Origin: Owenia fusiformis | Taxonomy: Eukaryota; Annelida; Polychaeta; Sabellida; Oweniidae | Direction of reading: 5' to 3' | Length of the DNA stretch: 64,000 nucleotides | NCBI GenBank assembly: GCA_903813345.2 | Contig: CAIIXF020000003.1 | Coordinates: 27,355,248 to 27,419,247 of the forward strand | In this document: piece after piece, positions 5,354-52,000 of the stretch | Layout of the letters: the number at the start of each line of letters is the position of its first letter | How positions within the stretch are numbered: position 1 is the stretch's first letter | Notes under the pieces: generated by a model | Told to the model about the DNA's origin: nothing | Databases searched by the model: none | Seen by the model: the letters and a program-made list of their open reading frames with translations, nothing else | Program-made: the position numbers and the translations under genes

Positions 5354-8300
5354 CTGAGCCTCTGAGAATGGAGCTTGCATATTGTCCAGTAGACTTGCCA
5401 GATCTTGTTCACAGTACTCCATCACCAGGAACATACTGCAAGAAATGTAACATGTATATAACGAGAAATATAGCACTTTTGAGATCAGAGACACTTTATA
5501 ATTCAGCATAGGCTGATACATTATTGAAAAACATTTATGACATCAGAGATACTTTTATTACAGTCTGTAACATGTAACTCATTTATGACATCAGAGATAC
5601 TTTTATTACAGTCTGTAACATGTAACTCATTTATGACATCAGAGATACTTTTATTACAGTCTGTAACATTATTGTAACTCATTTATGACATCAGAGATAC
5701 TTTTATTACAGTCTGTAACATGTAACTCATTTATGACATCAGAGATACTTTTATTACAGTCTGTAACATTATTGTAACTCATTTATGACATCAGAGATAC
5801 TTTTATTACAGTCTGTAACATGTAACTCATTTATGACATCAAAGATACTTTTATTACAGTCTGTAACATTATTGTAACTCATTTATGACATCAGAGATAC
5901 TTTTATTGCAGCTTAACATTATTGTGACTCATGAACGTCATCAAAGATTTACAGTGTTGTTACATTATTGTGTGTTATATCATTAATATAAACTGTTATC
6001 AGTTACAATATTCTTAACATATTCTTCAGGTTGGTTATTAAATCACAAAAAACACAGTTTTCTTCTTTACACAACCTTTATTATTTGAAATCCTTGAACG
6101 TTTTTGTAGTGTTTCAATTCAGTTTTATGTGTACAGTTGATAAAGGATCCAGATGGGATATGAAACGATCTGGAATTTCAAATAATAAAGGTTGTGTTTA
6201 GAAGAAAACTGTCTTTGTGATACAGTATTGTGACTCACCTATCTAGACTTTTGCCTACTACAATCTCACGTAGTTCTACAATGTTATCGTGCCTCAGGTT
6301 GAGAAGGATTGTCATCTCTCTAAGACCACTAATCGGAATACCTGAAGAGAACATACTTCATGTATATTATTCACAAATATGTTCAGAAGCAAGTTGGAAG
6401 TTTTATCACAAAATCATTCAAAAACTTGCCTGGAGATTAGCATTTTGGGTGCATCACACACAAAGTATATTGTAACATTGCATGTAAATAATGTTTCTTT
6501 GTATAAATTGTCTGTATTAAAATAGCTTAGACTTTGTGTAGTGTAGTGTAGTGTAGAACAATGTTTTTATTTTGTAATAACTAATATGTCAGAGTATGAC
6601 ATCTTAGGAGTCAATAAAAGATATATATATTATATGAACATATTAAAGAGATATTTGCAAGAGTTTGGTTTTGTAATATATCATATGAATATATCACTGC
6701 CCAAATGTATTCCTCTTAATTAAGACAATATGCAGGGGTTTCATTAGCAGCAGGCAACAGGTGATTTTCACAGGTTGTTTTCACAAAATGGCCTGTTGTT
6801 TTTCAGGGATTTTTCAACATTTCCGTGTTAAATTTATGATTTCTATTAATTTTGCATGTTGTTTTCATTTAAAGCCTGTTTTGGGAAATTCAGTTGAAAC
6901 TCCTATTTTGAATTCTATGCAGCCAGTCCAGAATATTATATCAATTTTTAACAAATGTGACTCTTTTATGTATTTGGATATGGTTCATTGAAGATGAGAT
7001 ACTGTTTTGATATATTCTAATATACTTAAATTACGATTCGTATGTATAAAATTACAACTAAAATTAATGATTTTGTGTAAATATCATTTAACATTATTAA
7101 ATTTGAGAAATTGCTTTTAAATGTAGCTTTGAGCTTAAATGTACATTTCATTCATTTTCCGCCTTTAATCCTTTTCAATACATTTTTTAATACCTGGTGT
7201 AATTTATATGCTTGCCATTCAACCATATCACATATTCAAATTGAATATGAGGAAAATATTGCACTTAAAACTGACATTAGGAAATTCAGTTTGTTGCAAA
7301 TACGTAAGAAAACAGACATTTCAGTTTTGATGACATAATACGGTTAGTATTATTAAAAAAACTCACTAAACCATTGCTTATATTGTTTATGTTCATCAAG
7401 ATTTTTATCAAATCATTTTAATTGACTTTGTAGCTTGTGTTATGAAACGCAATTAAATCTTTAAATTATTTAAATAAAATGTTAATATTTCATGTGAAAA
7501 ATTTTCATTGATGATTTTCATGTGAAGTATTTTTTAAATAAAAATATGACAACTATATGTCATTGTGTTGAGTTAAGTTCATTGAACCTAACCTCACCTA
7601 ACCTAACCAAGTGTTGAATTAGGTTCATTGTCATTGAACTGAGTAAGGTTCTACTGAATATTCAAAGATTTCAAGCTTTACATTTCTAGAACATTACATT
7701 AATGATGATATTCTGGAGTATTGTGACCATGCTACCTCTTTTGGTATCCTCACAGACCACACCAGCTTACGGTAGGGCATAGACTTATATCCAAATAAAT
7801 AAATATCCATTAAAAAAGTATAATAACAAATAAAGATAAGGACTCTTTTATACCATCAATGAATCTGAATTTATTCCATTTCAGAATTTACAGGAGAAAA
7901 TGGTAAGTACCATGTCATCATGTGCATGTATTGATTTATATCAAATAACTTCATGTCTTATTTCAAAAATAATATTCAAATTGACAATGATAAAAACAAG
8001 CTAAATCTATGTTTTAGATTAAGTGCTTTTTAAAGTAATTTAAGGCTGGACTAGCATTGGAACTCTCTGTTATAGCAGATCCTACCAATTAAAACATTAC
8101 TAATCAATAAAATCCCTTGTCATTTTGAAAATGTTATGACAGAAACATCGGTAACTAAGTACCATTCCATCTTGAGCAGAGTCCTATATAAATTAAATGG
8201 CTACATTGAAATTATTTTTTGAGCATGGCTCAGTGGCAGAGAGAGTCAAGGTTACCAATATCGCTCTTGGCCCGGGTTCGATGCCCGGTTCAGACAAGTT

Positions 8301-11300
8301 TGTTTGTGCGTTATGTAATTCTGGGTGTTTGACTGAGTGGTTCACGACTCGTGTACCTGTATGTCTGTGTACCTGTGCACATAAAAGAAAACAGGGCTCC
8401 TCCAAGGAGGGGTTTCTGGCTCTATCTTCGAGTGTAAAATACGTAAAATACGGAATATACCAATGAGGTATTGCTCGCCAAATATGGCTGTAACCAAGAT
8501 ATAATAATAATAATAATGATTGAACTGCTTCTCCATATTCCTATAAACTGTGAAATAATGATAATGTCCCTAAACTTTTTTATCTATAGGTGTGGACTCA
8601 TGGGGAAAAAAGAATCCTCTGTGTGACACGGGAACCCAACAATCTCCCATTGACATCATCCATGAAAATGCTGTCATCAATCCTTTCCTATACACTCTTC
8701 AATTTTATAACTTTGACACCAAATTACGAAACAATGTAGTGAATGTTGGCAATAAAGGTAAGACTAATTTACACAATTTCTTTAAGTATAATTCATTTTA
8801 ATTAAAGGGGCAACAAGGACTGTGGAGAGAAAATTCGAATATTTTTATTCTTTCTGAGCTATCAGGTCAATATTTGGCTTAACACCTTCTTTGACATACC
8901 TATTTTCATAAAATATACATATAAACTATCAATTTTAGCATTAAGAAGTGTGAATTCAGATCAAGGCTTCTATAAAGGGAGTCCCACTTATAGATTTTTA
9001 AGATCCACCACGTTTCAAGAGGAATATCAGCTGAAATAATGTTCATCCAGGGGGTTTAAGAATTGTAGATAAAGAAAATATATGTAAGTCTTGATGAAAT
9101 ATCCAAACTTAAATATATTTTGACTCTGGTCTATGATCGTGCCCCCCCCCCTGCACTGATTGTTGCACCTTTAATCTCAAAATCACACAATGCACACATA
9201 GAAAATGTACATGAGTGGGTGACACTTCCAGAAAGTGTATTTTCCCAATAAAAATTATAAAAAGTTTGGTACTTCTAAAAAGTGTTCCACTTGGAGGTGC
9301 TCCACTTATAAAGGTGTTCCACTTTACAGGTTTCACTTTAACAATTATGTGGTACGGTACGGTATTCATAAAATACACTGGTACAAGGATCTCATGCATT
9401 CTTCAAAAACTTATAATAAATGTACATCATATACAACTTATACAAATTCACTATTTCCAGTGAGGATTGTTATTGGAGAAAATCAACATCTTTATCTATA
9501 TAACGGTGGTCTCCCAGGAAGATATAGAGTGGGCGAATTGTTTATCTTTTGGCCAGCCATGCACCTTCTGGACAGAAAACGTGCAGACTTGGAGGTCAAT
9601 AAAGAAATCTGATTTATATGTACAGTAAAACCTGTCTAATTGTTTGATGTTGGCAATTTCAAATGACTGATTGATTAAAGAAAGATTCGAAGAAGGATAA
9701 CATATTTTCAAAAATGTTTTGCCTAAGGTTCCTTTATTTCTAATCATTCCATTTTCTAAAAAACGTAATATAAAACCTAATTGAAATCTGCAAAAAGGGA
9801 ATCAAAAAAACCATAGGATTAGTTATGAATACATCTGGGAAAACTTTCCACACATCATTAGATTCAAATTGTCAATTCATCTTTGAATTTTTAATCTACC
9901 ATTATTGAACTGATATACAGGATACCTCATTCTTAGTTTTCTCAACTTCTTTTATAGCTGATGATCTTAGCATATAATGCTGACTTGTACAAGACTTTGG
10001 GTGAAGCAATAGTGAAGAAAGATGGAGTAACTACATTTAGTGTTCTCTACAAGGTTAGGATATTTCTTTTTGAGCGATTTATGTCTACATTTCTACTAAC
10101 AAGGATCACTGTGACTTTTCATTATTTTTGGAGTTTATTCTCGAAATACAATTTTAGTTAATTCACATCTCATTTTTTGAAACAGGTATCTTCGGCAGAG
10201 AACCCAGTCTTGGAACCACTAATATCTACAGTCAGCAAAATCAGAGAGTTTGGTATATGGCAATTATAATATATATTAGGTTATGTAAAATGAAAATCCA
10301 TTTTCCTTTTTTAATACAGGGTGAGCCAAAATATAAGTAATTTTTGGAACAATTAAGCCTTATTCAATGTTTATTCATTCAACCAAGTTTCATAAGTCTA
10401 TTTCTTATAGTTACAATTTTATGGCCACTTTACAAAATAACATGCTCCAAATGCTGGTCTTGTCTTATTGGAGACATACTAGAACGCATCGGGTGAAGTT
10501 TGTTGACTACACGCTCACAGATATATTGTAAAATTTTCCTAGTCATCTCTTTTTTCAGCTCTCTGATGCTTCTAGTATTGTAAGTTTACATATTATCTTT
10601 TAAATAGCCCAAAATTTAATTAAATAATTAATGTTTTGTAAAATGGCTATAAAATTGTAACATTGAAAACAGACCAATGAAACTTAGAAGAATGAAAGAA
10701 CATCGGACAAGGTTCAAATATGACTTAAAACCCATACTAAATGACTGAGTAACTAAGATTTGTTTGGGTTACCTTTTTTGACTTACCCCGAGTATCACCA
10801 CTTTCTTCATGATTTAATTGTATTCATTAAAACACAGACTTTTTCCTAATCCTCATAATTGTTAAAGACTTGAACTGTTTTGAATTTTTGAAAGATGACC
10901 CTCTGTCTCTCATAAATGATATTAGTTGTCAGAAAGTTAAAAACTTTAGTTTATGATTGTATGCCTGCATTATATATCGATTTATCTTAAGGTAGTGAAG
11001 TCAAAATAGAGAGTGGCTTAAGGGTTGAGGATCTCATACCAGCAAGTGCAAGTTCCAACTATTACCACTATGACGGCAGTATCCCACATACACCATGTCT
11101 AGAGACAATAAAATGGTACATCTTTGCTGACTACATGTACCTCTCAGAAGAACAGGTCAGTAGATTGCACATCAAAGATGCAAGGCATACTCTGGAACCT
11201 AAAACCTCTATACCATAAAGTAAACCAGGCATAAACACATTTGCGAGTCCTCGTGGAGAAAGAAGTCCTTAATGTGAATTCTACATCACTTTTAGCTAGG

Positions 11301-14300
11301 TGAGTTCAAGATGCTTTGGGATCACCATGGTAACCTTATGAATAATCTCTACCGACCTGAGCAAAGTTTAAAAGGGAGGTCAGTGTATAGACCAATGTTC
11401 CGATCACCAAGGCTCGACTTCCTAGAGACTGGAGATAAACCTCCTACTCAAAAGGAATGTGAGTTGCATAAAGATCTAAAGACATGCAATTGGCCCATAA
11501 ATTAAGATATACCAAAATGCTAAAATGAAATGAAAAGCAGATGTATTTAACACACTGTTCATTTTTATCATTAACAGCTTGTATGTTTATCAACAAGCTT
11601 GGACATTTATCACTTCATAACCTTTGGAAGAACTCAGCAACACTTTTCATATAAGAGGTAATTCCTAAAGGTCAACTAGCCTATATACAATGAGAATATT
11701 GTCAGTAAATTGTTCTAGCTATTTTGATGTCATGTATCATATTAGAATTCATAATATGAACCACATTTTCAGCATGTGTTGATGTTTTCTTCATCATTGA
11801 TGAAAGCTGTTCAGTATATGAAGATATGCCAAAGATTAAGCAGCTACTCCTTGATGTAGTAGATAAGACAGTCATTGGAAGGAAATCTGCATTGATGTCA
11901 TTGGTGAGGTAAATTAAGGATTGTCTCTAGCATCTACTGTATCACGGCTCATGAAAAAAACAAAGGGCAAAATTATCCAGAAGACAGAGGTTCAATAGCC
12001 CATTCTACATTGCTACTAGAAAAGCTTGGTTTGATGTATCTATTTTAGGAATGGAGACAGAGGTTCAATAGCCCATTCTACATTGCTACAAGAAAAGCTT
12101 GGTTTGATGTATCTATTTTAGGAATGGAGACAGAGGTTCAATAGCCCATTCTACATTGCTACAATAAAAACTTGGTTTGATGTATCTATTTTAAGAATGG
12201 AGACAGAGGTTCAATAGCCCATTCTACATTGCTACAATAAAAACTTGGTTTGATGTATCTATTTTAGGAATGGAGACAGAGGTTCAATAGCCCATTCTAC
12301 ATTGCTACAATAAAAACTTGGTTTGATGTATCTATTTTAAGAATGGAGACAGAGGTTCAATAGCCCATTCTACATTGCTACAATAAAAACTTGGTTTGAT
12401 GTATCTATTTTAGGAATGGAGACAGAGGTTCAATAGCCCATTCTACATTGCTACAATAAAAACTTGGTTTGATGTATCTATTTTAAGAATGGAGACAGAG
12501 GTTCAATAGCCCATTCTACATTGCTACAAGAAAAGCTTGGTTTGATGTATCTATTTTAGGAATGGAGACAGAGGTTCAATAGCCCATTCTACATTGCTAC
12601 AATAAAAACTTGGTTTGATGTATCTATTTTAAGAATGGAGACAGAGGTTCAGTAGCCCATTCTACATTGCTACAATAAAAACTTGGTTTGATGTATCTAT
12701 TTTAGGAATGGAGATGGAGGTTCAGTAGCCCATTCTACATTGCTACAATAAAAACTTGGTTTGATGTATCTATTTTAGGAATGGAGACAGAGGTTCAATA
12801 GCCCATTCTACATTGCTACAATAAAAACTTGGTTTGATGTATCTATTTTAAGAATGGAGACAGAGGTTCAGTAGCCCATTCTACATTGCTACAATAAAAA
12901 CTTGGTTTGATGTATCTATTTTAGGAATGGAGACAGAGGTTCAATAGCCCATTCTACATTGCTACAAGAAAAGCTTGGTTTGATGTATCTATTTTAGGAA
13001 TGGAGACAGAGGTTCAATAGCCCATTCTACATTGCTACAAAAAAAGCTTGGTTTGATGTATCGATTTTAGGAATGGAGACAGAGATTCAATAGTCCATTC
13101 TACATTGCTACAAGAAAAGCTTGGTTTCATGGATCTATTTTAGGAGTGGAGACAGAGGTTCAATAGCCCATTCTACATTGCTACAAGAAAAGCTTGGTTT
13201 GATGTATCTATTTTAGGAATGGAGATGGAGGTTCAGTAGCCCATTCTACATTGCTACAAGAAAAGCTTGGTTTGATGTATCTATTTTAGGAATGGAGACA
13301 GAGGTTCAATAGCCCATTCTACATTGCTACAAGAAAAGCTTGGTTTGATGTATCTACAGTATTTTAGGAATGGAGACAGAAGTGCAATAGTCCATTCTAC
13401 ATTGCTACAAGAAAAAACTTGGTTTGATGTATCTATTTTAGGTATCACAATGATGTCAACTTGAATTTTTACCACTTGAATACAACAAGTAATGAAGTGA
13501 CCAGGAAATTTATTGAAACACAACCTCTGGGACAAACTTCTTCATGCAAGACTCAAACATATCATGCCTTGAAATTCCACTCAGAATTGTAAGTATCATG
13601 ATACTATACAATGATCTGAAAATCTGAACTTTTAAAATCTAGAAGTTCTATATTGACAGAAGCAATACTGTAACTGATTATACAGCCTCTTCACTGGTAA
13701 GTAATTCACAGCAGAAAAGTAACAAATTGGGTGAATTTGTGGAAAACAGCCTGCAGAGTGCAACATTTAGTAACAAGTGTATCATGCATGACTATTTCCA
13801 ACTGTCATATGTTACATTTCAGTTTCTTTGGTATGGGGAAAAATGCAACACGTGAATATGTGGGGACCAGGCCTGATTCAATGGCCAATGATGTGATGTT
13901 TGTAATAACTGATGGCATATCAATTCCACGTGGTAGGCGAGGGAGTAAGTGTCCATTAGATTAATTAGAAGAATCTTAACTGGACCCTAGCATAGCTGCT
14001 ACGATTTCCATGAGAGTACTGAACTAACTAATCAAATGATATACAAAGAAATTGTGTACTCATTTATCTGTAACGACAAACTTTAGATTGACTTTCAATA
14101 TTGCCTTTTTGTTCCCTTTATTTTCTGTCCTTTTGAGGCAAATCTAAAGTATCTTAAATGACATTCCAGGAGCACTGAAAGAGGCTCAAAAAATCAGGAG
14201 AGCAGGAGTAAAGATATTTACGATTGGGTTACACAACTGGAGAAATCTGGATGGCTCCCCTGAACTACTTGGCTTTGTTAATGACAATGAGAATCATGCA

Positions 14301-16516
14301 TTCAACATTGATGATGAAGGACTCGCTGATATAGTTGCAGGCATTATCAACTCTGCAGACCCCTGCTTTAAATCCCCTCCAACTACCACAACCACAACAC
14401 AGTTGCCATCAATGACTACTACAATGAGGTCAGTTGGTAATATACATTATCTTTGACCAGCTGAATCAGAAAACTTATTTGATCTCACAGTCATCTTCCC
14501 AGCATTAAAGAAAGTGGGTGCAGCATCCCCCTGAGATTTTAATTATACACCAATCTGAAAATCTATTTGCACCCACTTGAAAAATGAAAACAGCATGAAA
14601 ATGGGCATATTTTAATCAATTTCATGAGAACTTTGCACCCACTTGAAAAAATGATAATAATAATGATATAGGAAAACATTCAACAGATATAAGCACATGA
14701 TAAGTTCATCTTATGAAACTTTATTGTGTTTGAAATTGTTTTGCAATTGTATTCTATATATGTACTTGTATATTACTTCATTTGTTTCTGTTCAGGCTCT
14801 CACCATGAAGGCTAGATGTAAAATCAGATCTACTGTTATAATTTTGGAGATATGCACCTAGATATACTGTATACTTGATGCACGATGGCTACTGAAGCAG
14901 TGCAGGATCATTATGAAATGATTACTCTGGACAAAAATAAATTGAAAAATGAATAACAAATATCTTTATGTTTATATGTTTTTGTGTATGTTTGATTTCA
15001 TGCCACATCTATGAAAACTATCTATCCCATCTAATTGGGGATGAGAATTTGAAAGTGAAATTTGAATCAGATTTTTACTCACCATCCTTTTCTCTTTCCA
15101 TCCTCATTTTCTTGAGAGCAACAATTTCATCTGTCCTCGTGTCTCGGGCACGATCTGTAAATACATGTTAAGCTATATTTTAGCTTGAACTATTATGGCT
15201 TGCTCTTGTAAGCTACAATCTCATAATCCTCGAGTTTCAATTAGAATCTAAAATTAGACTACTAGAATAGTACCTAATAAGTGAATCATAGGTCATTGTG
15301 AACAACTCACATTTGCACTTTATTTTTGGTGGGTTTCTAATATATTATCAATTATTTAAAGATGTCATATAAGGTATTTTTTACTTTTTTCAAAATACAA
15401 ATAAACTGGTGATTAAAAGTAATTTCATTTACATATTTGCAATTACATGTTAAGCTATATTTTAACTTGAACTATTATGGCTTGCTCTTGTAAGCTGCAA
15501 TCTCATGATCCTCGCGTTTCAAGTAGAATCTAAAATTAGACTACCTAATATTATTAATTATCAAAAGATGTCATATAAGGTATTTTCTAATTTTTTCTAA
15601 ATACAAATAAACAGGTGATGAAAATGAATTCATTTACATATTTTATATTGATTACTAGCATACAGTATATACACTAGAGCAACAAAGCGTACTTACATAC
15701 AATACCATATGTCCCTTCTCCAACCCTGTTTAATTTTTCAAACTCTGTGACACTTCTGCATTGTCCATACTGTAATATAATACCAACAAATTAGAAGGCA
15801 ATTTTGCATAACTCTTAATTATGTTGATATTATCAGACAGGGGGCAAAATTCTGATTTTCACAATTCATACCAAAATTGGTCAAAATATGCCAATTTTTC
15901 ATGATTTTTCTTATTTTCAAGTGAGTGCAAATGGATTTTCAGGTGGGTACAGACCTATTTTCAAAATCTTAGTTGGGTGCTACGACAACTTGCTTTAATG
16001 CTGGGGAGATCACTGGTCTGTTAGTTACATTGTAAGATCCAATTATTGCAAACAAAATTCAGATTAAAAAGGTCAAGACAGACTGAAGAGAAACACTTTT
16101 ATTAGTTAATTTTGGTGAGGTCATGTGAATGATGCCATGGTTAAAGATTTAAAATTACCACTTACTCAGCTTTTGTAAATTGCCATCTCAAGAGATATGT
16201 ACTGACACAGACAATATGTTACTATTCTACAGTATACTTGAACTGAATGTTAAACCATTTATTTACAAATGTCTATGTTTACCCTTTATAAGTCAGGATA
16301 TGTTGTAAAATAATTAAATACCGGGGGGTAGTCAGTCCTCTCTCTATTACACCTTATAAAAATAGGGTAAAATAGAGAGGGAGAGGTGACGGACTCCCTG
16401 TGTTCAATACCACCTACTTTATCTTTATCTGGTACTTCTGAGAAAGAGCTGGTTTTCATTGAATACAGTAGGTTCCCATTAGACCTTCTTTGGCTCTCAC
16501 TCCTGGTGTCTTGCAT
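5354..16516 (-). CDS. CDK10: Cyclin-dependent kinase 10, 5' half, partial
   Basis: CDK10 is a CDC2-related Ser/Thr kinase that partners cyclin M and acts in transcription and ciliogenesis control. Five exons read in phase on the minus strand: 16418-16516, 15697-15769, 15083-15154, 6239-6341 and 5354-5435, 143 codons in all. In order one sees a linker into [17 protein letters not shown], the glycine loop GEGTYG, the ATP-binding Lys in VALKK, the cyclin-contact helix as PISGLRE (the CDK10 form of PSTAIRE), and the hinge [11 protein letters not shown]. Every boundary is GT-AG and phases agree. The catalytic loop and C-lobe lie off the left edge. The start Met at 16516 is the first in-frame ATG, but an AG lies just upstream, so an earlier exon is possible. 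Intron 3 is about 8.7 kb and contains another complete gene on the opposite strand. Confidence 0.9.
5531..5912. repeat. minisatellite, ~48/54-bp unit, about 8 copies
   Basis: The unit 'atttatgacatcagagatac...' repeats about eight times. Most spacings are 48 or about 54 bp because some copies carry an extra 'attatt' before 'gtaact'. It lies in the CDK10 intron between exons 5 and 4, about 100 bp from exon 5. Confidence 0.9.
6044..6219. repeat. hairpin/MITE next to CDK10 exon 4
   Basis: The left arm (cacaaaaaacacagttttct, 6044 onward) and right arm (ending at 6219) are reverse complements over about 48 bp with few mismatches. They include the shared core acacaacctttattattt. The right arm ends 20 bases from the splice donor of CDK10 exon 4 (6239). 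Confidence 0.75.
7702..14808 (+). CDS. Secreted carbonic-anhydrase-related / vWA fusion protein, nested in a CDK10 intron
   Basis: Thirteen exons join in one frame: 7702-7771, 7885-7902, 8590-8757, 9461-9594, 9958-10053, 10186-10252, 10992-11155, 11296-11458, 11773-11908, 13442-13588, 13823-13944, 14170-14428, 14796-14808. The total is 1557 nt, or 518 residues plus stop. The first codons give a signal peptide ([18 protein letters not shown]). An alpha-carbonic-anhydrase fold follows (about residues 24-295): [50 protein letters not shown] and YLSEEQ all align with the family. The zinc-site segment reads ELFIFWP where active enzymes have QFHFHWG, and ELMILAYN where they have ELHLVHYN, so all three His ligands are missing and it is probably catalytically dead. 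A vWA domain follows (about residues 315-495) with MIDAS DESCS and VITDG. A Thr-rich tail ends the protein. I infer an extracellular matrix, adhesion or biomineralisation-type role; no family member with this exact architecture is known to me. Confidence 0.88.
8221..8518 (+). mobile_element. tRNA-derived SINE
   Basis: RNA polymerase III promoter boxes are visible: A box tggctcagtgg (8227-8237) and B box ggttcgatgcc (8275-8285). A non-tRNA body and an (AAT)n tail ending near 8518 follow. It lies in the intron just before the 8590 exon of the carbonic-anhydrase-related gene. It does not fold as a full tRNA, so it is not annotated as one. Confidence 0.75.
8802..9174. mobile_element. MITE with TTAAAGG.GCAA ends
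   Basis: It begins ttaaaggggcaac and ends gttgcacctttaa, giving inverted termini with TTAA outermost, as for piggyBac-type target sites. A related longer copy begins at 16641 (ttaaaggtgcaat) and shares internal phrases such as 'catacctattttc' and 'atatattttgac'. There is no ORF. It sits in an intron of the carbonic-anhydrase-related gene. Confidence 0.55.
11983..13441 (+). repeat. 73-bp minisatellite, about 20 copies, ending in a functional splice acceptor
   Basis: The unit runs from gacagaggttcaatagccc to tgatgtatctattttag. About 20 copies at a 73-bp period fill nearly the whole intron between the exons ending at 11908 and starting at 13442. The last unit's tgtatctattttag is directly the acceptor of the next exon. 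Each upstream unit therefore carries a copy of the same pyrimidine tract and AG (some as ttttaag). Copies differ at only a few positions (agaaaagc/ataaaaac, ttagg/ttaag), suggesting recent homogenisation. Confidence 0.95.
14494..14680. repeat. dispersed repeat ('cccagcattaaag...gcacccacttgaaaaa')
   Basis: Phrases 'cagcattaaag', 'tttgcacccacttgaaaa' and 'aatcatgaaaa' mark a repeat about 170-190 bp long. It recurs at about 15838-16012 (inverted), 28668-28862, and partly at 47855-47900. It has no coding content. The copy here lies in the last intron of the carbonic-anhydrase-related gene. Confidence 0.6.
14936..14941 (+). promoter_or_regulatory. polyadenylation signal AATAAA
   Basis: A canonical AATAAA lies 128 bp past the stop codon of the carbonic-anhydrase-related/vWA gene. 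It is before the first CDK10 exon on the other strand (15083), a plausible 3' end for the nested transcript. Confidence 0.5.
15838..16012. repeat. inverted copy of the 'gcacccacttg' dispersed repeat
   Basis: This is the reverse complement of the element at 14494-14680, recognisable by 'aagtgagtgcaaatggattt' and 'cttgctttaatgctgggg'. With that copy it forms an inverted pair flanking CDK10 exons 2 and 3. Confidence 0.6.
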
Positions 16517-19105: not shown

Positions 19106-29677
<10,572 letters not shown>

Positions 29678-40375: not shown

Positions 40376-40506
40376 CCCGCCCGCCAAGCTGACTATCATA
40401 TCGTACCTTTTGTTAGGTACGATAAAACCCCATGAAATTGGAAAGTAAAAAATAGGAAAATTTCGGAGTTGACGCCTTCAGAGAACATCACTCCTGCTCC
40501 CAAACA

Positions 40507-42234
40507 GTGCTTCGACTAATACAATCCATCCAACAAGCCTGGGGAAGAGGAGAAACCGTGATTGCTGCAGTCCTGGATTACGAAAGTTGTTTCGAACGAA
40601 TTTGGAGAGAGGGACTCATATACAAACTGTTTAACAAAGACATCAAAGGCAGGATGCTCGTATATTTACACGAATACCTTAACAACCGACAATTCTCAAT
40701 CACAACTAATGACTTTACCACACCACTAATGACATCTAGGGTGGGTATTCCTCAGGGATCAATTCTCAGTCCATCCCTCTGTAACCTATACACTGAAGAC
40801 TCTATGACCTCTGTGAAATCCGCCACAGCAGGATTCGCAGATGATAATATCATATGGGCACATGGTAAAGACATTGATAAGCTATCATCACAAATCAACG
40901 AAGACCTTAACCAAATTGCTGTCTCTTGGTGTGGAAAATGGAACATGGAAATTGCCCCTGAAAAAACTGAAGTCCTAATTTTCACCCCACCAAACAAACC
41001 CTCCCCGGTAGTTAACATCCACATCGGCGGAAAAAAGTTGGACTTAGTGACACATAAGAAAATACTTGGATGCACTATTGACACTGAACTAACTTTTAAC
41101 CAACACATAGACCTGAAAACAAAAGCGGCCTACGGAGCGCTTAGCGGCATCTCAAACTTCACATCTAATAAGGGAGGATGCAGCCAAGAAGTCTTTACAA
41201 TGCTCTATAGAGCACTAGTAATGCCTCACTTTGAATCAGGCATCAGCGCTGTCGCATCAGTAACAGATAAAGCTATAACAGCATTTTCACCTATACACAG
41301 ATCAGCACTACTAAAGGCCACCGGCTGCATAACATCTACCAGCACTGACACTTTAGAAATTTTAGCTGGAGTTCCCCCCCTCGACATAATCCTAAGGGCA
41401 CGCCAAGCTCAAGAAGCTGTTAGAATTCTTACCCATCACAGATCAGCCCCAATTACTGACGAATATGAACAATGGGCCCAGTCATCTACGCTAGAACGCA
41501 AACCCTCCTGCTTTAACATCCTAGCAGCAAGATTACGACTGTATAACTGCCCAACCTCTCAGGAGAGTTATTACAAACACATCTACCACAACGAAAACAT
41601 TGAAACTTTTAAACTACCACCTGTCAAAGTCCATGTGGAGGACTTCAAGAACTCTAAACAATCACAGAGTGACAATATAGTCAACATACTTTCCTCAAAA
41701 CCAGATAAAGACACTATAGTTTTCACAGATGGTTCATCACTGGGGAACCCAGGGCCAACAGGGGCAGCAGCAATCATCTACCAACAAGGCCTGTCTTCCT
41801 CCCCAATATGCATCGAATCACCAACCTCTAAGATTGGCAACAACTATATCGGCGAAATTCATGCATTGAAATTGGCACTGGAATTCCTCACCTCAGCCAC
41901 CACAAGCCCTGATATTACACTACTATCAGATTGTCAACCGGCAATAATATCAGCCTTCTTAACCACTAACTTAAAAGGAATTACAACTGATATACTCGAA
42001 ATTCGCAAAGCCTGTAAAACCCTTATACAGCAACATAAAACCATCCAAGTCTACTGGGTACCTGGACACCAGGGCACAGAAGGCAACGAACTAGCAGACA
42101 AGATGGCCAAGAAGGCAGCTGAAAATGCCAAACAGCTCACGAAACCAACATCACAAAGACTACAGCTTATAATAAGATTAAAAATGCCTGCACTCACAAA
42201 TGGCAGTCCAGATTTGAGAACTCTAGTAAAGTGA
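40507..42234 (+). pseudogene. reverse transcriptase / RNase H ORF of the LINE
   Basis: The frame is open upstream of the first Met (from about 40462), so the start is just an internal Met. RT motifs: DYESCFERIWREGLI, GIPQGSILSP, and the catalytic box as GFADDN. A thumb-like region follows. RNase H motifs are all present: FTDGSSLGNPGPTGAA, GEIHALKLALE, LLSDCQ and VPGHQGTEGNELAD, covering the catalytic D-E-D plus His/Asp. The frame ends at a stop just after the RNase H domain; homologous sequence continues in another frame, so a 1-2 base indel lies near 42150-42170. Confidence 0.85.
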
Positions 42235-46017: not shown

Positions 46018-49000
46018 TCAAGGGTGAAGAGCACTGGACATTTGTGTGTATGGGCTGTAGTCATATTGGGGTAATGTAAGCACACAGCAAGCTCTCCCAT
46101 ATATCTGATTAGAAAATCTTTCCTCACAGTTCACGTCATCTTTCCTCGGATCAAACACTTGGATTAAATCTGAGTAATAATGTCCTCCGTTAATACCTCC
46201 TATCACATATATCTTGTTGGACATTACTGCAGACCCTGCATCGCGGATGTTTATCGAACTTTTACATAGTGTCCATTGTTCAATTTTAGGATCGTACATC
46301 TCAATTTGGACAGTTGGGACAGGGAATCCATAACTGTCTTCAGTGTTTCCTCCAATGACGTAAAGTTTGTCCATGATCTCCTCCATGATGTGATTGGCTC
46401 GTGCTCCTTTTAGGGGTGGACACTCTGACCAATGGTCCGTGTTTGGATCATAACATGATACACTATTTGTGTAACCATCAAATTTTTGTCCACCACTAAC
46501 ATATATTAAATTGTTACAAATTGCACTAGCGTGGCCATACACTGCACTAGCTAATCCTTGCCGACTCTCCCAGTCATTTTTCTCGATCAAGAAACATTCC
46601 ACTGTACACATGACCATATTCTCATCTTGTCCCGATATTGCATATAACTGCTTACCATGGGCAACCATTGAAAAGTCTTTACGCGACTCATTCATTGATG
46701 CAAGTTCAAACCACGAGTCAAATCTTGGGTCATACCGGAAACACCTTGCAGTGGCAATCTCATTGTTTTCATTTCCATCGTATTTCCCACCACATGCGTA
46801 CATGAAGTTATCAACCACACAGACACATGGGTTGTAAAGTGGCACGCTGGCATCACGCAAGAAGATGTGTCTGTGTGTCTCAAGGTCAAATGACTCTATA
46901 TTTTCAGCGTGAACCATGATAAGGCTCTTCTTAGCTGATCTGGAATCACAAGGACATAAGATAAGTTAATAGTCATACATGACTACAAGAACAAATAAAA
47001 ATTTAAAAGTTGGAAACAGATGACAAAAGACATATGTTTCTGCAACAAACAATTAATTTTAAAACACATTTTGAAGCAATAAACATTTGGAACTAATCAT
47101 TGTTTGCAGAACAAACAATGAAACTTTCATTAAATATTACATACATGTCCATAAATAAATAAAGCGGTTGATCCCAAAATTGATACACAGCAAGTTCCTC
47201 AAATATAAACTTCCACTTATTTTCAGCCTGCTTATTATGCTATTTAACCTCTTGACTACCCAGAGTGACGAGATCTCTCGTCACCTGAGAAATGACCTTG
47301 AAACCCAGAGATAATCCGTCACAAAATTTCTCACTAAAATTGCTCTTATTTGAACAATTTTCATCCAATCTACACAAAATTTGTCTAGAAATGATCTCTG
47401 TCATCTAATTTTACTAAAATGAAAAATTCTCTGGTTTCAACTGATTTTAGAATCTGGGATTCAAGAGGTTAAAACTACTTATACAAACCTGAAATGCTAT
47501 AAATACATGGTCTCACCTAACTTGAGTCCTGCTGGACTGCATCAGTGGTTGTTTACCAACTACTATGTGATAATCTTTCGCTGCATTGAGAAGATCGCCA
47601 CATTCTTTATTCTGACGCATTATGTCAACCTGGAATGTACTTTAAATGTTAATTTTCTGGGATACAGAATACCAGTTTTCTTTCTTGGATATTTTTATTT
47701 TATCAACTTGAAAGAACAAAATTCTGAATTCACTAGAAATGTCCAAAACTGCCAACATAATTTTTTTAATTTTTTAGTGATATTCAAGTTGCTCAAATGC
47801 TTAGAGAATACTGGTAGAACAGAACAAAGCATAAAAGTAAAGACTTTGTGTGAAATGAGAATTTTGCACCCACAGTTAAAAAGAAATCCCGGGGAGAATA
47901 TTGGGAGTATCCACAAGTGTAACTATAAAACTGGCTCAATTCAAGCATACAATTCACTTCTAGGGTGCAAAAAACAAACAACACCAGCAAAGAAGCCTTA
48001 AGTCAGATAGTCTGAAATCCTTATGTCACACTCACCCCCAGCATTCGCGTTAACGCAAAAAACTTGCGGATTTACGCGGATTTTTGGCCCATGACCCCGA
48101 TATTTTAGCTCTATTCCGTCCCCGGGACGTAAATTTACTTGTCATGGATAATTTCAGAAACCCTTACCTTAATAATCGATGAACAAGAACACAAATGTGT
48201 ACAGTATGTCCCCACCTATGGGTGATCCTGTCAAATGGTTATCCTAAAAATGAGTAGACAAGACTTTACCGACACAATTTAAGGACGGAGAATCCAAAAT
48301 GAAAAATCCAAAATGGCCGACAATAAAAAAGTGATTATGAGTTTTTGCTGAAATCTTTTTACAAAATTATCACATATAACTACTGTTAACAATAACATAA
48401 GCTTTTACAATAAAGTACACCTGAAATTATTTTTTAAAGCTACTAAAAAGTTAAAGTATGAAAACTGAAAAACACCATTCAATATGATACAAAGTATTAT
48501 CGTGCGCTAACTTTTCTTAAAACATTCAAAATGACTGACATGACTGAGCTAACAGGTCCAAAACCTAATCAGATCTAGAATGAAGTGAGCTGAACAAGAT
48601 GTTAAAGTTTTAAAAGCAACTGTTTTTCTTAAAGTTTGCAGACAAGGATTTTAGCATTTGACTTCAAAATGGCCGACAGGAAGTAGGTATCGAGTTAATT
48701 TTTTTTCATCCATATCTGTATGCACTCATAAGTTATCCCTGAAAATTTGAAGGTGATATCTGTAGCGGTTTTGGAGAAAACTGCCGGACGTACGGACGGA
48801 CATACGGACAGACAGACAGACGGACGCGCCTAGGCCGACAATATGGCCCCACACTATGTGGTGGGGACATAAAAACTGGACGTAAACGGCACTAAAAACA
48901 AATCTGATTTTTTTCCACTTCCGTGTTTGTAAATATAGTGATGACGCGCATGCGTTGAATAAACAATATAACCTCCCATGATTCCATTGATCACATGCTT

Positions 49001-52000
49001 AATTCGTAAGCCAATTAAACTGTCGATCTTGCAGAAATCATTCCCACAATTCATTCACTACCTATCACCTTCTTCTTGGACAAAATGGCGAACGATCTTT
49101 CGATCAGTTGCACTAAGAAGCGCCATTTTCTTCATTTTCCAATTCGATTATCGCACATTATGGTGTATGTTCCGAGTATATCAATGTATGCCTAAAAACG
49201 ATTGAATAGGTAATAAATTTTACCTGTAAATCATCACTCAAATATCTAGGTCAACATATCACGTGACAAGTCATGTGACTTATATGTTTGATTGGCGGGA
49301 AATAAAAGGTAGGCTATTTTCTTGCAATTTTTTAACAGAAAAATACAATTTAAAATGCTTTAAAATTGGGACCCCAATTTTTTGGAGAGGACCCAGATTT
49401 TTAAAAGCCCTTGGTTCCTGGGACTCAGATTTGAAAATGCCTAGCGCGAATGCTGCTCACCCCATTATGGGACCACTAGTGAATTCATTAATATGTAATT
49501 AATATCAAAGTGTTTTAGTACCCAGTATGAATTGGTAAAAGCATTTTTCTTCAAAAGTCCATGGTACAAAATACAAACCTGACTGACTTTATCCACCAAT
49601 TCCTCCCCAGAGAGAAGAGGAAGGCGAATATTTTGCATCAACACTGGCAAATGCACTTCCCGTTCTTTTCGGTCATGGTCAATCCAGTCCAATACATGCT
49701 GAAATAGCTTATACTCTGCTGCAACATTCAGAGAATTCTCTTCCAGCATGGCTGCTAACTGGATATGATTCAAACGTTGATATTGCTCCGTTTTGCTGAA
49801 CTCTTCAAAATTTTTCAGCATATAGTCTCTAGCTTTTGCACGTATCCCAGATAATGAGTAGATCTCCGCTAAGTTGAGTAAATCGACACAGTTCTCTGTC
49901 GTTATTGCATATGACATAAAATCGCAACAAAGCTCCACTGCCTCTGCTATCTGGAGATGGGCAGCAGCTGACAAAATTTCTTGTAGATTATCAAGGTTAA
50001 TCTTCAACTGACCTGCAAATGAAGAACAATTCAAAATACTCATTGAGTTACATGAAAATAAACCAGTCACAAGTTCAGATCAGAATCATTAGTCTAACAG
50101 GACAAACAAGGGATTTGCTACAATGATGGTATAGAAGTAGGGTAAAATGCATTTACAAAATCTTTGCTACCAGTCAATAAATTAACACACCCAGCCAATC
50201 TGAACAGTATCATACAGTACATTTTTTCCACAATATTTGTGAATACGTTACCATATTGTTAAGACGGTACGGTAATTTCAGAGTGCAGATTTGGGGTGTA
50301 CAAAATATCTCTTAGTTTACAAATCAAAATGTGTTATCTATGTTTTAGAAGTGTTTTACCTGTGTATGCAAATGTGACTAGTTCCTTCAAACCACCTGCA
50401 GTGACACCCTTTAGCTCAACAGAAGACTCCTGGCTCTCCTTCATTGTACCTGCACAGAAAAAGCATCAGTGTAACTATTGTTATTGCAAATGTAAAACAT
50501 AAATTGAAAAAATAACAATAAATATAAAAATATAAAAAATAAACATAAGATTTAAAAACTTTAAATTAATTTCAAAGGCGAATCGATTGAAACGATAGAA
50601 ATGCTCAAAATGACGTAAGCATTGAAACGTAGGAAATGATAAAAGGATTGAAACAATTGAATTGATTGAGACAATTGAAACAGTTGAAACGTTATTTACA
50701 GTGTATACAGGGCTTAAATCTAGATTTTCAAACTAGAAACATCTGCCATTTGTTACAAACACCAACCACCAACAGCTGAACACTGTCCACAAAAAAAGTT
50801 GGGAACTATAACAATATGTCGACACTTCTCGGGAGGATATACCTAGTAAAGTAAGAGACAAACCTGTAAACATTGCATGGAAGTAGTCACTCACTGACAC
50901 CATGACAGCCTTGTGCACCTTTATTGATAAATTGTCCGCTATCAATGTGTAGTCACACAGTAACTCATCCCGTCGCAGCTTATCAAGCCCCTGTAGAACC
51001 TATAACATTTATGGAATAATGAATTGAAATTGAAAGTGTTGTAATAATTAACCAATCAGTGTCAATAAGGGAAACATATCAGGCCCATAGCCAGGGGGGT
51101 TGAGCGAAATTCTTTCAAAATCATGCAGTTTTTCATCATTCTGAGTACTTTTCAAGTGATTTTGGGCCAAAGTTGTCAAATGTGAACCCCACAGGAGCTT
51201 GTCTCGAGGCGTCGGGCAAGCCCTCCGATGAGTGTGTACTGCTTATTAAGAGTTTAAGGGGGGTCTTTTTGATGCTTCCTGAAATTTGTAGAAATATATA
51301 GTTAGATATATCCAGTAAAAACATAAGGAATCCTTTCAATAATCGACATGCTGATTCAAACAACACTACAGAGCAAAGTTACCCAAAATGGTAGCAATCC
51401 ATCCACTAGTTGCTGAGAAATCTGAAGAATATGTAAAGAAGTGATTAAAATGCAAGTACCGACAATTTTCGCATCCAAATTATTACCTCCAGAGTCGATT
51501 TCTTCCTCAACACACGTCCACTGTTAAAAATTGGTAGTTCCTAGAGTTCTTTGTTTCCTTAGGTTCATTCCCGTATATATTTTTTAACGAAGGACAGCCC
51601 TATAACGACTGCTATACGCAAAAAGATGCATGAAACTAGAAGTTACGAAACTGAAAGTTAAAAAATGGCGACTTCCCGTGTTCTATGCGCAGGTGCGTTC
51701 AATCCAGCAATTTGATTAGTTCATATTATATAAACGCATGCGCAATAACTACATATATTTTTAGATAGATATCACTTGCCAGTCTCCAAGCCTTTCGTCC
51801 AGTGCCATCCGTACCTCCTGTGCTTTACCTCATGCAGTTGTTTAAATTCCCGCGAAATTTATCCTTCTAAATATTTTAACCCCCTTCAAAAAATCTATTT
51901 TTTGAGGTTGCTACTAATTTTATTCGTTATATTTTATAAGATGTTTATTTCTAATGTAGTAAGAATCCATTCGTAAGAAAAATATTAAGTAATTCGTAAC

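Follow-up and report, generated by a model that had tools for sequence, protein, structure and literature searches.

We find that the window, a stretch of 64,000 nucleotides from Owenia fusiformis, carries at 7702-14808 on the plus strand a predicted gene whose product joins a carbonic anhydrase (CA)-like domain to a vWA domain, and that this gene appears to be one of seven of the same make-up in the genome. We consider it probable that the product is a secreted, zinc-less, two-headed and non-enzymatic binding protein that would bridge two extracellular partners. A preliminary description of this DNA had proposed the fusion; it missed both the loss of the three zinc ligands from the CA half and the likely membership in a seven-gene family.

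Rebuilding the gene gave 13 exons (7702-7771, 7885-7902, 8590-8757, 9461-9594, 9958-10053, 10186-10252, 10992-11155, 11296-11458, 11773-11908, 13442-13588, 13823-13944, 14170-14428 and 14796-14808) with a total of 1557 nt, corresponding to 519 codons including the stop and to a protein of 518 aa. All 12 introns are GT-AG and the joined frame contains no internal stop. This model is identical to the one first described, for which 13 exons of consistent phase and exactly 519 codons had been claimed. Our own splice-aware aligner found 12 of the 13 exons again exactly and the thirteenth up to the stop, a result that tests the aligner only, since the query was the same model. Support from outside the locus comes from the exon lengths of the paralogue C1a (C1 14.786-14.793 Mb), where nine successive exons measure 168, 134, 96, 67, 167, 166, 136, 147 and 122 nt compared to 168, 134, 96, 67, 164, 163, 136, 147 and 122 nt in the window. 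The predicted exon 13, of four codons, has no counterpart in C1a, the sole paralogue compared, and the frame of exon 12 runs on there.

Most of the 1533-nt intron 9 is occupied by a 73-bp tandem array (11982..13442, plus strand; 19.9 copies with 95 % matches according to TRF), the units of which repeat a splice-acceptor-like stretch, TATTTTA(G/A). The intron contains 19 such acceptor-like stretches, of which 14 end in AG (TATTTTAG), the used acceptor at 13441 among them. Three of the upstream acceptor-like stretches were read through: in two, translation would stop after 15 residues, whereas the third is open over the 20 codons read. A tRNA-Gly-like sequence (8218-8295, plus strand) lies within intron 2; judged by eye, it may represent the head of a SINE of tRNA origin.

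The genome comprises 525 contigs with a total of 498 Mb, of which C1 to C12, each of 31.9 to 62.2 Mb, account for about 478 Mb; C13 measures 0.66 Mb. Erythrocruorin-linker C-terminal domains, a family that marks annelids, are present in it (PF16915; three matches above cut-off, best E value 5e-7), and mitochondrial COX1 has no match. When the whole genome was searched with the fusion protein, 85 matches were obtained at E <= 10, among them unfused genes of both kinds, vWA and CA. At six further loci, CA exons precede vWA exons on one strand, which brings the total to seven on three chromosomes. These are C1a at C1 14.79 Mb, the two genes C1b1 and C1b2 at C1 3.03-3.06 Mb, and the three genes C4a, C4bd and C4c at C4 10.61-10.81 Mb on the minus strand, each with both halves in order. 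The paralogue models, for which either the window protein or another paralogue served as the alignment template, are biased toward the window structure. Pfam scanning of four of the six found both domains above cut-off in all four. The C4 models are rougher: that of C4bd contains several tiny and questionable exons in succession in its CA half, and the two halves of C4c, 12.6 kb apart, were modelled separately and joined by hand. The C1b1 and C1b2 models end past the last vWA cysteine in sequence that is not clearly Thr-rich and was trimmed before alignment. C1a is the nearest copy to the window gene and shares 340 identical residues with it over 485 aligned positions. For this pair the NG86 method gave a dN of 0.254 and a dS of 0.983 for the CA half; for the vWA half the values were 0.119 and 1.113. 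YN00 gave 0.258 and 0.970 (CA) and 0.129 and 0.808 (vWA). The corresponding dN/dS ratios are about 0.26 and 0.11. Both halves, the non-enzymatic CA half included, thus look constrained on the one pair measured, at a dS near 1.

Pfam finds both domains above cut-off in the 518-aa protein, bearing out the claim that a single model holds a CA-like and a vWA domain. Carb_anhydrase (PF00194) matches aa 30-271 with an E value of 4.1e-50 and 171.2 bits (cut-off 27) over positions 2-252 of the 254 of the profile, and VWA (PF00092) matches aa 297-483 with 4.9e-16 and 59.9 bits (cut-off 23.8) over positions 1-171 of 174. Together with alignments, these matches place the CA-like domain at 7902..11391 on the plus strand, from the end of exon 2 to exon 8, and the vWA domain at 11781..14333 on the same strand, in exons 9-12. 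The two halves are separated by intron 8 (11459..11772, plus strand), a phase 1 intron of 314 nt. No other family was matched at E <= 1, chitin-binding, fibronectin III and phosphatase domains included, and no Gly-X-Asn or acidic repeat region was seen by eye in the protein. At the amino end lies a putative signal peptide (aa 1-17, 7702..7752, plus strand), recognized by eye from its hydrophobic core, with cleavage probably near SSQ; the rough model of C1b1 starts much like it. The Thr-rich tail of the preliminary description is present in the model translation at aa 498-518 (14376..14805, plus strand), encoded by the end of exon 12 and the predicted exon 13. Thr-rich ends are also found in the models of C1a, C4a, C4bd and C4c, and not clearly in those of C1b1 and C1b2.

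In the PDB the CA half matches 241 sequences; the best 60 of them include CA7, CA1, CA2, CA12 and the receptor phosphatases zeta (E value 2.3e-25) and gamma (6.6e-25). The vWA half matched 19 sequences. Its match to collagen VI alpha-3 reaches an E value of 6e-9 when the chain is taken as a whole, with no individual stretch passing by itself, and the I domains of integrin alpha-1 and alpha-2 are matched with a best E value of 9e-5.

The six cysteines of the window protein, at 41, 220, 295, 306, 374 and 494, are kept in all seven fused models. Cys41 and Cys220 correspond to the positions of the disulfide in secreted CAs, Cys295 and Cys494 flank the vWA domain, and Cys306 and Cys374 lie beside its metal site. 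This layout is suggestive of three pairs, of which one would be the secreted-CA disulfide, the second would clamp the vWA domain and the third would lie next to its metal site. The MIDAS motif of vWA domains consists of DxSxS, a Thr in loop 2 and an Asp in loop 3. The vWA half shows this pattern as DESCS at 303-307 (D303-x-S-x-S307), the Thr in SSCKTQT at 372-378 and the Asp in ITDG at 416-419; on alignment, the D/S/S, T and D positions are present as a sequence pattern in all seven fused models.

In the alignment of the CA half, the three zinc ligands, H94, H96 and H119 in CA numbering, are replaced by F113, F115 and M132 in the window protein. The L-H-F-H-W of catalytic-looking CAs from the same genome reads L-F-I-F-W here, and their E-L-H reads E-L-M. 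Because all three zinc ligands are gone, the CA half should be regarded as a CA-related domain and not as an enzyme. The full set of zinc histidines is found in none of the seven fused copies. The residues at the H94/H96/H119 positions are F/F/M in the window protein, N/N/T in C1a, H/R/Q in C1b1, H/R/H in C1b2, I/N/Q in C4a, I/K/Q in C4bd and K/N/Q in C4c, with H96 lost in all seven and two of the three histidines retained in C1b2. At the positions other than H96 the residues differ by lineage, which would fit the drift expected after a loss of catalysis. A six-residue stretch directly behind the Trp-97 position is also absent from every one of the seven fused models; none of the 14 unfused CA models shows this gap, one of them, L027, being mis-modelled at this very site. 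With zero, one or two zinc histidines left, the fused copies may form a series along which the loss of an enzyme site can be traced.

To place the fusion, trees were computed for each half from the seven fused copies plus a sample of unfused ones (14 for CA and six for vWA). Among these sequences the fused copies fall on one side of a branch, with support of 98/98 in the CA tree and 100/99 in the vWA tree. The same three subgroups are found in both: the window gene with C1a, C1b1 with C1b2, and C4a with C4bd and C4c. Support for these is 100/100 each in the CA tree and 94/98, 85/98 and 100/100, respectively, in the vWA tree. The unfused CA rows are rough automatic models, with L027 (mis-modelled exon) and L029 (long branch) retained, and at least four CA places, namely C12 1.911-1.913 Mb and C3 20.775-20.776, 28.850 and 28.886 Mb, lie outside the tree. 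The six unfused vWA places were drawn from a larger number of genome matches. Long branches were flagged in both trees, including, in the vWA tree, long branches that meet. One fusion event followed by duplication would fit these trees as the simplest history.

Two other vWA open frames in this genome, L035 and L036, are similar to the fused copies in that they have the Cys at the N-terminus, end in a Thr-rich stretch and contain the motifs DTSCS and CKT, but differ in that their vWA domain lies in one exon and that they are placed outside the fused clade. No CA half was found within the 0.7 kb read. The CA gene L029 (C2:214500-219299) is without the full zinc-histidine set in a rough model, and the genome search with the fusion protein gave no vWA exon match near it. 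At C1:37.84-37.86 Mb, vWA exon matches of equal or nearly equal score stand in a row at a spacing of about 1.9 kb, which suggests that vWA domains have recently expanded in tandem there.

We hypothesize that the fusion protein bridges two partners in an extracellular layer, which may be matrix, mucus, cuticle or the lining of the tube. The CA fold without zinc ligands would provide a protein-binding face, as in the receptor phosphatases gamma and zeta and in CA10. The vWA domain, with its metal-site pattern intact, would bind the second partner, a matrix protein or glycoprotein, via a divalent cation, and the Thr-rich and probably O-glycosylated tail would lie at the end of the chain. Where its metal site is intact, a vWA domain binds its partners via a divalent cation. 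As binding modules, CA domains that have no zinc are known chiefly from receptors and ligands of the nervous system, and CA10 is said to be a pan-neurexin ligand, a name given to it in the title of a paper. We infer the secretion, the binding, the partners and the site of action of the fusion protein, and a binding role, argued from analogy with these domain types, seems most likely. For PTPRG, whose CA-like domain is without the key histidines, contactins are the ligands described in the accessible part of PMC8773835. It is conceivable that the seven genes form an as yet undescribed extracellular adaptor family, fused once (perhaps deep in the annelids or in the oweniid line), whose products would cross-link a tube, cuticle or mucus layer, a wider proposal that we put forward tentatively and with somewhat more doubt than belief.

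All seven loci have the same CA-then-vWA order, with both halves on one strand, which argues against a CA-like gene and a neighbouring vWA gene having been misread as one, even in a genome where both domains are common (63 CA exon matches and at least 156 vWA matches genome-wide). The distance of 12.6 kb between the halves of C4c would favour two genes, while the halves of C1a are just 133 nt apart. In C1a and C4a an in-frame Met precedes exon 9, so that a separate vWA product is possible there; an upstream Met was flagged in three of the seven copies, that of C4c sitting inside exon 9, by a scan that read introns over 300 nt over their last ~300 nt only. In the window copy, however, a stop stands four codons upstream of exon 9 in its frame, and no start codon intervenes. 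The junction 11458/11773 and its counterparts in the other six models read on in frame in all seven when phase 1 is assumed, with a 3-nt exon made by the aligner at the CA/vWA junction of C1b2 and weak acceptors in both C1b copies, and the subgroups are congruent between the trees of the two halves. Judged from the sequences, two separate genes are unlikely, and strongly so, and we infer that both halves are carried on one transcript.

The bicarbonate sensing described for PTPRG and its histidine-poor CA-like domain in the accessible part of PMC8773835 would offer a precedent for a binding protein that senses CO2/HCO3- or pH, in which the zinc-less CA pocket binds a small ligand and alters binding by the vWA domain. 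The variation of the zinc-position residues among the seven copies points to drift rather than to a kept small-molecule site, and the loop beside these positions is missing in 7 of 7 models, leaving a sensor a small chance. Still less can be said for an active carbonic anhydrase tethered to the matrix by its vWA domain, which we find hardly credible: even C1b2, with two of the three zinc histidines, falls short of the set that is complete in no copy, and the window copy has none. The preliminary description had suggested a matrix or biomineral-associated binding protein. Matrix-type binding is plausible, but the biomineral part is unsupported, the window protein having no zinc site, no chitin-binding domain and no acidic or Gly-X-Asn repeat, and its host being a tube annelid that is not known to calcify. 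Owenia fusiformis builds a sand tube, which it is not known to calcify. A biomineral, shell-matrix-like protein is accordingly a very improbable reading in our estimate, even though CA and vWA domains are both found in mollusc and coral skeletal proteomes (accessible parts of PMC3374290, PMC5379566 and PMC11959691).

The architecture of the proposed bridging protein has partial likenesses in known systems. PTPRG and PTPRZ have, like the window protein, an extracellular N-terminal CA-like domain joined to further domains, but according to the available portions of their descriptions they continue with fibronectin III and a cytoplasmic phosphatase, whereas the window protein continues with a vWA domain and a Thr-rich end. 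CA8, CA10 and CA11 share with it a CA fold without the full zinc site, and they are not known to have a second domain. Nacrein and nacrein-like shell proteins resemble it in joining a secreted CA domain to other sequence; the CA domain of nacrein is divided by a Gly-X-Asn repeat (PMC3374290, accessible part), in contrast to the window protein, which has neither such a repeat nor a zinc site. The Pif and BMSP shell proteins are vWA proteins of an extracellular layer, as we propose for the window protein, but carry chitin-binding domains (PMC3374290 and PMC7747718, accessible parts), of which Pfam finds none in the window protein; the same portions of these two papers mention no CA domain in Pif or BMSP. 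A single protein with both CA and vWA domains is not mentioned in the accessible portions of PMC3374290, PMC7747718, PMC5379566 and PMC11959691.

More generally, no CA-vWA fusion was found in the available portions of the open-access literature that deals with CA and vWA together or with CA in Owenia, in agreement with the initial remark that such a fusion was unfamiliar. As far as the open-access literature shows, we have not found this domain pairing before, and it would be a new combination built of known modules. If true, the seven-gene family would represent another route of the CA fold into matrix-type adhesion, and 'carbonic anhydrase' matches in tube or matrix proteomes need not imply carbonate chemistry.

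The window contains several other features. At 15075-15167 on the minus strand lies an isolated exon-like piece, flanked (by eye) by splice sites, that matches cyclin-dependent kinase 11B with an E value of 2.5e-5. Pfam gives no match for it at 0.01. Thirteen other kinase patterns were looked for across the window, and RISA alone was matched, at repeats near 33.8-34.0 kb. The CDK11-like piece may be a stray duplicated exon; as a 3' boundary of the fusion gene it was considered and rejected, being isolated and on the minus strand in a window with no other clear kinase motif. Two open frames on the minus strand, at 46018-46965 and 49465-50079, contain Kelch repeats and BTB/BACK domains, respectively; both probably belong to a kelch-like gene as exons. 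Mobile elements are represented by open frames at 20735-22258 on the minus strand (capsid-like, with DUF1759 and Ty3 capsid) and at 40456-42234 on the plus strand (reverse transcriptase and RNase H).
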